In this document: positions 18,418 to 38,231 of the stretch, one piece after another | How positions within the stretch are numbered: position 1 is the stretch's first letter | Layout: each line of letters opens with the position of its first letter | NCBI RefSeq assembly: GCF_900220985.1 | Contig: NZ_OCPC01000003.1 | Location: forward strand, 62,001 to 126,000 | Reading direction: 5' to 3' | DNA: 64,000 nucleotides | DNA from: Parahoeflea halophila | Lineage (GTDB): Bacteria > Pseudomonadota > Alphaproteobacteria > Rhizobiales > Rhizobiaceae | Position numbers and translations under genes: made by a program | Notes under the pieces: model-generated | The model's database searches: none | What the model was told of the DNA's origin: nothing | What the model saw: the letters and a program-made list of their open reading frames with translations, nothing else

Positions 18418-18432
18418 GTTCAACCTTTGTTC
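18418..18432. promoter_or_regulatory. LexA box of dinB
   Basis: GTTC-AACCTTT-GTTC is an exact match to the Rhizobiales LexA site GTTC-N7-GTTC. It lies 14 bases before the dinB ATG. A candidate promoter, TTGTGA at 18383 and TAATCT 17 bases on, would place the site over the transcription start. Confidence 0.88.
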
Positions 18433-19781: not shown

Positions 19782-23348
<3,567 letters not shown>

Positions 23349-23576
23349 TGATGTCCTCTGCCGTCCGGTCCGCCGCCCGGCACCCTGCCGGCATGCTGCG
23401 AGACTCAAACCACAATTGTGAGGACCGGGACGGCAAAGTCCAGAGCACAGGCCGCGAAAACACCCCTTGACCACCCCTTCTTTCCAGCTTGCAACAACGC
23501 GAGTGAGGGAACCGTGACGTCAGACCCCGAACTGCAACCAGGAATGCTGTGCAGGCGGGGCTGCCAGGCTGCATGC

Positions 23577-23590
23577 CGCCGCTAGCGGCG
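23577..23590 (-). terminator. GC palindrome after the 28-aa gene, weak terminator candidate
   Basis: CGCCGCTAGCGGCG is a perfect 14-base palindrome 27 bases past the stop of the small gene on the minus strand. No T-run follows, so it may attenuate rather than stop transcription towards dnaE. Confidence 0.3.
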
Positions 23591-23616
23591 ACATGAAAAA
23601 TCACAAGAAAACCCTA

Positions 23617-23703
23617 TCAAAACGCCATCGCCAGAATGGCGAAGGAGGCCACGAACAGGGACATGGAAACGAATGCGGCAATGTCACGGGCAAATGCGGT
23701 CAT
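23617..23703 (-). CDS. 28-residue membrane protein under LexA control (SidA-like division inhibitor candidate)
   Basis: A very short gene, below the usual ORF cut-off. AAAGGAG lies 6 bases before its ATG, an ideal ribosome binding site. The protein begins MTAFARDIAAF and continues as one hydrophobic helix to the end (VSMSLFVASFAILAMAF): a polar cytoplasmic start with one Arg/Asp pair, then a single membrane span. An exact LexA box lies upstream between a TTGACG -35 and the -10 region. In Caulobacter the 29-residue SidA has the same size, topology and LexA control, and blocks division through FtsW/FtsN. Sequence identity to SidA was not tested; the role is inferred from architecture and regulation. 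Confidence 0.75.
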   Translation of the reverse strand: MTAFARDIAAFVSMSLFVASFAILAMAF

Positions 23704-23740
23704 GATCAACTCCTTTGAATTCCCTTTATGTTTTTAATCT

Positions 23741-23755
23741 GTTCTATTTTTGTTC
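23741..23755. promoter_or_regulatory. LexA box and promoter of the 28-aa gene
   Basis: GTTC-TATTTTT-GTTC is a perfect Rhizobiales LexA site, AT-rich in the spacer. On the minus strand a TTGACG -35 (23759-23764) lies just before it, and a weak -10 (AGATTA-like) just after it. LexA would therefore sit directly in the promoter, 38 bases before the start codon. Confidence 0.88.
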
Positions 23756-23900
23756 TATCGTCAAGTCCACTTGCCACGAATATGCGTCTGACCCTCCTTG
23801 TTCCTCGTAAACCGTGACCGGCCCCACGACGTCACAAGGCAATCAGGCATGCGGGACGAACAGCCTGAACTTCAGACATTCCCCACGCGCCCTCCCCGCA

Positions 23901-23930
23901 ACAAAAAGCCCGGGCGCTGGCGCCCGGGCT
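23901..23930 (-). terminator. Rho-independent terminator of hupB
   Basis: AGCCCGGGCG and CGCCCGGGCT form a perfect 10-base stem with a CTGG/CCAG loop; on the minus strand it is followed by TTTTTG. It stands 28 bases after the hupB stop. Confidence 0.88.
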
Positions 23931-23958
23931 CATCGTCATGCAATCAAGTCAATCGAGC

Positions 23959-24231
23959 TTAGTTGCAAGCGTCCTTGAGACCCTTGCCGGCCGAGAACTT
24001 CGGCACGTTGCGTGCAGGAATGTCAACTTCCTTGCCGGTCTGCGGGTTGCGGCCCTTCGAAGCTTCGCGGCGCGAAACGGTGAAGTTGCCGAAACCGATC
24101 AGACGGACGTCGCCGCCATTCTTGAGCTCATTGGTGATGGTGTCGAACACGGCTTCGACCGCCGAAGTTGCATCACCCTTGCTCATGCCCGATTTCTCGG
24201 CCACTGCGGCCACGAGTTCATTCTTGTTCAT
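23959..24231 (-). CDS. hupB: DNA-binding protein HU
   Basis: 90 residues, the standard HU length. It has the N-terminal helices (MNKNELVAAVAEKSGMSKGD), the GFGNFTVSRREASKGRNPQTG arm with the DNA-inserting Pro, and a C-terminal helix ending KDACN. HU bends and compacts DNA in the nucleoid. AAAGGGACGG precedes the ATG. It lies downstream of lon on the same strand with a 290-base gap, a common order in alphaproteobacteria. Confidence 0.96.
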   Translation of the reverse strand: MNKNELVAAVAEKSGMSKGDATSAVEAVFDTITNELKNGGDVRLIGFGNFTVSRREASKGRNPQTGKEVDIPARNVPKFSAGKGLKDACN

Positions 24232-24466
24232 TTCCGTCCCTTTCTGGGTTTCGTCGACTCATATTGTTCGATGCGGTGATCCTACGCATCTATCTGTCAC
24301 GCGCAACCAAACTCCCCGGAAACCCGCGCTTTATAAAGGCTTTTCACAGGCATTTTGCACCTTGTGGGCCCACAGCGGCCAAGAAAGTTAAGAATTCGGG
24401 TGAAATGCCGCGCGCCTGTGCAGTTTCGGCGCATTTTTCCGGTTCCTGGCGGGTCCCGGAATGCAA

Positions 24467-38216: not shown

Positions 38217-38231
38217 GAACATAAAGGGAAC
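38217..38231. promoter_or_regulatory. LexA box of the VOC gene
   Basis: GAAC-ATAAAGG-GAAC is an exact GAAC-N7-GAAC site. On the minus strand it follows a TTGACG -35 (38236-38241) and so overlaps the promoter spacer, as at the 28-aa gene. Confidence 0.87.

Follow-up and report, generated by a model that had tools for sequence, protein, structure and literature searches.

The window, the whole 64,000-nt stretch of Parahoeflea halophila DNA that was analysed, carries on its minus strand a short ORF of 28 codons plus TGA (23617..23703), which starts with the ATG at 23703, ends with the TGA at 23617 and encodes MTAFARDIAAFVSMSLFVASFAILAMAF. We refer to it as the sidA-like ORF, and its reading as a CDS is based on the sequence, on homologs before dnaE and on purifying selection in relatives. 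An AAAGGAG ribosome binding site (RBS; 23710..23716) is present 6 nt before the ATG, and the best 17-residue stretch of the 28 residues has a mean hydropathy of 2.36. The downstream neighbour on the same strand is dnaE, encoding DNA polymerase III alpha (19782..23348, PF07733), whose ATG is at 23348, leaving 268 nt between the two genes; a second match to the PF07733 family was detected on another contig. Thus, the short frame, its RBS and its distance to dnaE are as the original prediction had described them. Upstream, also on the minus strand, lies hup for the HU protein (23959..24231, PF00216, 2.1e-34), followed by a terminator-like hairpin (23906..23931) with 11 pairs, 9 of them GC, and a T-rich tail. 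As this hairpin closes hup just upstream, the small ORF is probably its own transcription unit.

An exact LexA box, GAAC-N7-GAAC on the minus strand and GTTC-N7-GTTC on the plus strand, was identified ahead of the ORF at 23741..23755 (read from 23755 to 23741, GAACAAAAATAGAAC on the minus strand, which equals GTTCTATTTTTGTTC on the plus strand). It is preceded by a -35 element, TTGACG (23759..23764), whose TTGAC is conserved before the box in relatives; both were found where they had been predicted. Placed by a 17-nt spacing, the probable -10 element is CAGATT (23736..23741), which is weak, matching the consensus at 3/6 positions, and overlaps the box by one base. Thus, of the earlier claim that the box lies between the -35 and -10 elements, the -35 and the exact box stood, whereas the -10 side did so less clearly. 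The corresponding site in some relatives reads CATAAT or CAAAAT (by eye), nearer to the consensus, and a sigma-70 scan of 23300-24000 returned no promoter. A possible third half-site, AAAC (23730..23733, minus strand), follows with the same 11-nt period and one mismatch to GAAC, giving a triple array GAAC-N7-GAAC-N7-AAAC at 23730-23755 that also occurs in several relatives of family f1; it could serve a second LexA dimer or tune the strength of the site.

By itself, the box pattern does not stand out against chance. The window contains 4 exact boxes against 2.16 expected, a number reached by 17 of 100 shuffles, and genome-wide the pattern occurs 53+53 times compared with 43+51 for a control pattern. 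The box alone was therefore dropped as evidence, its frequency being no higher than chance in window or genome, and what decides is its conservation before dnaE together with the membrane ORF behind it. The genome has a single LexA-type gene (PF01726, E 2.4e-16). Besides those of the window, we inspected the contexts of 20 stretches out of the 106 exact boxes, picked mostly for A/T-rich spacers; further boxes adjoin ssb, uvrA and a radical-SAM repair gene, and because of this context GTTC-N7-GTTC was taken as the working LexA motif of the genome. One box lies near an imuA-like ORF recognised by eye, with no family match. Within the window, another exact box (18418-18432) immediately precedes the stretch matched to dinB (DNA polymerase IV), and an A/T-rich exact box (38217-38231) is located 28 nt before a 153-aa minus-strand ORF, VOC-like by eye, which is possibly a further SOS gene.

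When 397 genomes of the order were searched with a single sequence, 21 matched, of which 17 had dnaE in the same 3-kb locus; the remaining 4 (L014-L016 and L020) were discarded, as their loci were without dnaE. To avoid selecting on the ORF itself, we also carried out a survey anchored on dnaE, which was sought in 130 genomes of the order and found in 129. Distances in this survey were counted from the first matched dnaE residue, usually about 35 codons inside the gene, and in one of the 129 genomes (G141) the upstream region was 387 nt only. Exact GTTC-N7-GTTC was present at most 700 nt before dnaE in 68/129 genomes, while the controls, namely GTTC with spacers of other lengths and eleven permutations of the word with spacers of 4-10, were present in 0-12 genomes. 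A membrane ORF follows the box in 62/129 genomes and 27/48 families, or in 61 and 26 without G058, whose box-linked ORF looks false. In 69 box-bearing regions, taken over a slightly longer stretch, an ATG-started membrane ORF was found in 62 in the sense direction versus 3 in antisense, and one with an RBS in 58 versus 0; 100 base shuffles of the same regions gave such a membrane ORF in 0.2 on average and 2 at maximum. Moreover, TTGAC starts 8-11 nt ahead of the box for 43 of the 62 box-linked ORFs, versus 1.3% of random stretches.

A profile built with the family in question left out detected the small ORF in 63/129 genomes from 26 families (E 0.1), 55 of which carry the exact box, and gave no match on the reversed sequences of the 129 genomes. 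Thirteen further genomes had the box without a profile match: in nine of them (families f4, f22, f42 and f51) a short membrane ORF does follow the box, and in the other four (G058, G100, G031 and G140) nothing clear was seen behind it. Thus, the conserved short frame with a LexA box before dnaE, which had been proposed as a check in other Rhizobiales, was indeed found there. Neither the ORF nor an exact box was found before dnaE in 53/129 genomes, so that absence from this place is common; three of these 53 carry the ORF elsewhere. For the alignment, G058 was omitted from the 62 box-linked ORFs, the start of G021 was shifted by hand, and three sequences without an exact box (G005, G093 and G084) were added by hand. 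In the wider family, lengths range from about 24 to 47 residues. Three relatives of family f61 (L025, L097 and L114) have 44-47 residues, with an N-terminal extension ahead of the conserved core, and lie before dnaE. Searching four family members returned no match in Pfam and, in NCBIfam, one chance-level match (E 0.23) in one of the four.

The small ORF is under purifying selection in relatives and is conserved at the amino-acid level. Pairwise pN/pS was 0.23 among 5 sequences of one genus of family f1, 0.11 among 7 sequences of another f1 genus and 0.26 among 15 Caulobacteraceae sequences, and the nucleotide changes in all three groups were mostly at third positions. Between the window ORF, the one sequence in its own genus, and its nearest match (L002), 13.7 synonymous changes over 21 sites were counted, versus 15.3 others over 60.

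SidA of Caulobacter is a 29-residue LexA-controlled inner-membrane inhibitor acting on FtsW (PMC4211646). Loci of Caulobacteraceae were collected with PopZ as a bait, which returned 80 loci, mostly from Caulobacter, Phenylobacterium or Caulobacteraceae. dnaE was searched in 28 of these genomes and matched in 27, comprising 26 Caulobacter/Phenylobacterium and Proteobacteria bacterium isolate CAULO1; the sole genome of the 28 without a dnaE match was L125, the one nearest to the PopZ bait. In 27/27 loci a 29-30-residue ORF was found ahead of dnaE, 25 by automatic scan and two (L208 and L210) one by eye and one by profile. The exact box precedes dnaE in 16 of the 27 loci, and 11 are without it. 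As an example, C. vibrioides OR37 has a 29-residue ORF with GAACATCTTGTGAAC, to which the window ORF aligns without gaps at 9/28 identical residues (by eye). When 1376 membrane ORFs were scored with the profile of the order, the top Caulobacter ORF reached E 5e-7, and hhalign of the order profile against the Caulobacter profile gave 94.6% with E 6.7e-8 for a single comparison. The reverse search with the Caulobacter profile was weak, with the best member (L025) at 0.001, the first unrelated ORF (L037) at 0.028 and many family members ranking below the latter. In many members of the order, and likewise in Caulobacter, there is a charged pair, then A-[LF] and further on an F.

As to which Caulobacter gene this is, sidA is CCNA_02004 (PMC10769358), dnaE of C. 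crescentus is CC1926 (PMC1839093) and recN is CCNA_02062 (PMC12700426), or CC1983 in the CC numbering. With the offset of 79 seen at recN, dnaE would be numbered CCNA_02005 or slightly lower, so that it and sidA are at most about two numbers apart. From size, box, place in relatives and locus numbering, we infer that the Caulobacter ORF before dnaE is sidA. The window ORF is then very probably a sidA ortholog, in a family that reaches beyond the order, on four grounds: the ORF in the corresponding position ahead of dnaE in Caulobacteraceae, the conserved box and -35 layout, the profile match to the Caulobacter ORF, and the numbering that brings Caulobacter sidA close to dnaE. The homology left open by the original prediction of a SidA-type candidate is thus backed on these same grounds, the reference being the Caulobacter ORF taken as SidA.

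In Sinorhizobium meliloti the tblastn match was weak (E 0.8 in all 5 records), and dnaE adjoins the match in the same 5 records. The finding of Sinorhizobium and Shinella among the relatives agrees with Rhizobiales as the order of the window. In strain Ak57, whose record bears a pSymB label and is 3.7 Mb long, the gene order is a lipoprotein-releasing permease, an ABC ATP-binding gene, a 28-residue ORF with the box (MADFVRDLAAFASMSLFIVSISVIALGL) and dnaE. The incomplete gene table of Ak57 has no annotated feature over this ORF; in the stretch from the ABC gene to dnaE, no other ATG-started small ORF has an RBS. Ribo-seq of S. meliloti 2011 detected a translated sORF25 in the 5′-UTR of dnaE1, and sORFs of this type were counted as possible uORFs (PMC10117765). 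Like the window ORF, sORF25 is a small ORF before the polymerase gene, and it is probably its ortholog; where a ribosome profile empty over the frame would have spoken against the original prediction, translation of a small ORF, probably this one, is reported before dnaE1 of S. meliloti (PMC10117765). The main text of that paper contains no LexA or SOS term (PMC10117765). Among the literature matches listed, none dealt by title or abstract opening with SidA outside Caulobacter, and an earlier mention is possible; the cited passages hold no statement on which SOS division inhibitor rhizobia use.

Beyond the order, dnaE loci were examined at the class level, where the profile of the order found the ORF in 9 of 40 loci (E 0.1). 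These 40 were picked from among the higher-scoring rows, rather than at random, out of 363 genomes of the class in which dnaE was matched, and 3 of them came from the order; outside it, the ORF was found in 7/37 genomes from four families. This reading was used instead of the A1 profile over the class, whose matches in 76/386 genomes (E 0.5) were for the most part short and partial and were taken for chance. A rhizobial counterpart of SidA, as the window ORF appears to be, suggests that this checkpoint on DNA damage extends far beyond the genus of its discovery. On balance, we favour the view of an SOS checkpoint gene of ancient origin in the Alphaproteobacteria: sidA, located between lolD and dnaE, would predate the split of Caulobacterales and Rhizobiales, would be the SOS division inhibitor so far missing from rhizobia and their relatives, and would have as its promoters the LexA sites of the class credited to dnaE.

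Computation supports the existence and conservation of the gene, the constraint on its coding sequence, its conserved LexA-type promoter layout and its homology to the 29-residue ORF before dnaE in Caulobacter. We consider it likely that the window gene is a sidA ortholog, which would have a LexA-repressed promoter to itself and encode a 28-residue single-span inner-membrane peptide that holds the divisome inactive on damage. LexA would bind and repress this promoter until, upon DNA damage, RecA triggers LexA cleavage and the promoter opens; the peptide would then accumulate in the inner membrane and keep the septal wall machinery FtsW/FtsI/FtsN inactive, presumably through FtsW, and division would be blocked until the damage is repaired. 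A gene of the FtsW/RodA family was found in 14/14 genomes checked, with and without the small ORF. At A31 of FtsW, a change of which lets Caulobacter resist SidA, alanine was found in 4/8 genomes with the gene versus 3/6 without; F145 is phenylalanine in 7/8 versus 4/6, and A246 is alanine in 6/8 versus 4/6. Thus, none of these three positions of Caulobacter suppressors distinguishes genomes with the ORF before dnaE from those without. SidA itself has been modelled on TM7 of FtsW, not at high confidence (PMC13396833).

Other readings of the small ORF have to be weighed at this point. With dnaE starting 268 nt further on along the same strand, the ORF may encode a leader peptide (uORF) through which dnaE is controlled by translation or attenuation, with the LexA box serving dnaE, as the counting of the S. 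meliloti sORF among possible uORFs (PMC10117765) and of C. crescentus dnaE among genes reported as SOS-regulated (PMC3323433) would have it; we think that the latter regulation refers to the box serving sidA. A leader would always be located before dnaE on the same strand. However, in genus g3 the ORF and box are far from dnaE in 3/3 tested genomes; the ORF lies about 714 kb from dnaE in G136 and on a different contig in G069 and G105, and in G095 (locus L242, family f11), where it has two GTTC boxes, it is on the opposite strand. As the ORF and box persist where dnaE is elsewhere, this is not simply a dnaE leader. Furthermore, shuffled versions of the 268-nt leader fold just as well (z -0.13), 23200-24300 has no Rfam match, and it is the small protein that is conserved at the amino-acid level. 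In g3, the ORF with an exact box was found in 7/7 loci, and in 2/7 the gene ahead of it encodes an ABC transporter (PF00005; LolD by eye); these are 7 of 11 loci, since two unrelated-looking ones (L386 and L388) and two second copies (L384 and L385) were left out. The second copies (family f44), possibly paralogs, have no exact box and lie about 700 nt before an ssb-like ORF. A gene found with dnaE in the lineage of the window and with lolD-type genes in another is as expected of an independent unit between them, and we regard the leader reading as very improbable, although read-through from the small ORF into dnaE is possible.

It is only slightly less improbable that the ORF encodes an SOS-induced membrane-depolarising toxin, bringing growth arrest or persistence and no divisome block, like TisB or DinQ of E. 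coli, both of the same size class and under LexA control. What argues against it is the kinship with the Caulobacter ORF that we take to be SidA, an inhibitor acting on FtsW, and the lack of a known antisense RNA family in 23200-24300, a search that covered Rfam only and leaves a novel antisense RNA possible. More conceivable, and yet unlikely, is a small SOS membrane protein that belongs to the SidA lineage but has a different partner in the envelope of these cells. The sequence changes fast, with the 9/28 residues shared with the OR37 form, so that the target could have shifted, and A31 of FtsW is not constant; against this, the charged pair, A-[LF] and later F shared by the order and Caulobacter would suggest one common partner.

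If the window gene is a sidA ortholog, as we favour, a conserved small gene with S. meliloti as a model host would make the SOS checkpoint of rhizobia directly testable, and the Caulobacter inhibitor would become a family whose natural variants, by the dozen, could serve to map the contact with FtsW. LexA sites published as dnaE regulation may be reassigned, and the translated small ORF whose role a proteome survey had left open would gain a likely function.

Among known inhibitors of division, YneA, SosA and ChiZ are longer than the window ORF and are not known to be related to it in sequence. Together with DidA of C. crescentus, YneA (B. subtilis), SosA (S. aureus) and ChiZ (M. tuberculosis) are likewise small damage-induced membrane division inhibitors (PMC4211646, PMC13396833). 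DidA differs in having 71 residues and in not being LexA-controlled, and SulA of E. coli, an SOS division inhibitor by role as proposed here for the window ORF, differs in its target, FtsZ (PMC4211646). The closest likeness is to SidA of Caulobacter, which blocks division, binds FtsW and FtsN and has suppressors in ftsW/ftsI. Identity to SidA is low, and the upstream neighbour varies, being hup in the window and an ABC transporter gene of lolD type in S. meliloti. On the other hand, SidA has 29 residues and the window ORF 28, both with one hydrophobic span after a short charged start; a predicted LexA site lies in the window ORF's own promoter, and GTTC-N7-GTTC control and, judging from relatives and locus numbering, the place directly before dnaE are shared as well. 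A length of about 29 residues with one span, the box, the place before dnaE and the homology were thus all found in the window ORF, as in SidA.
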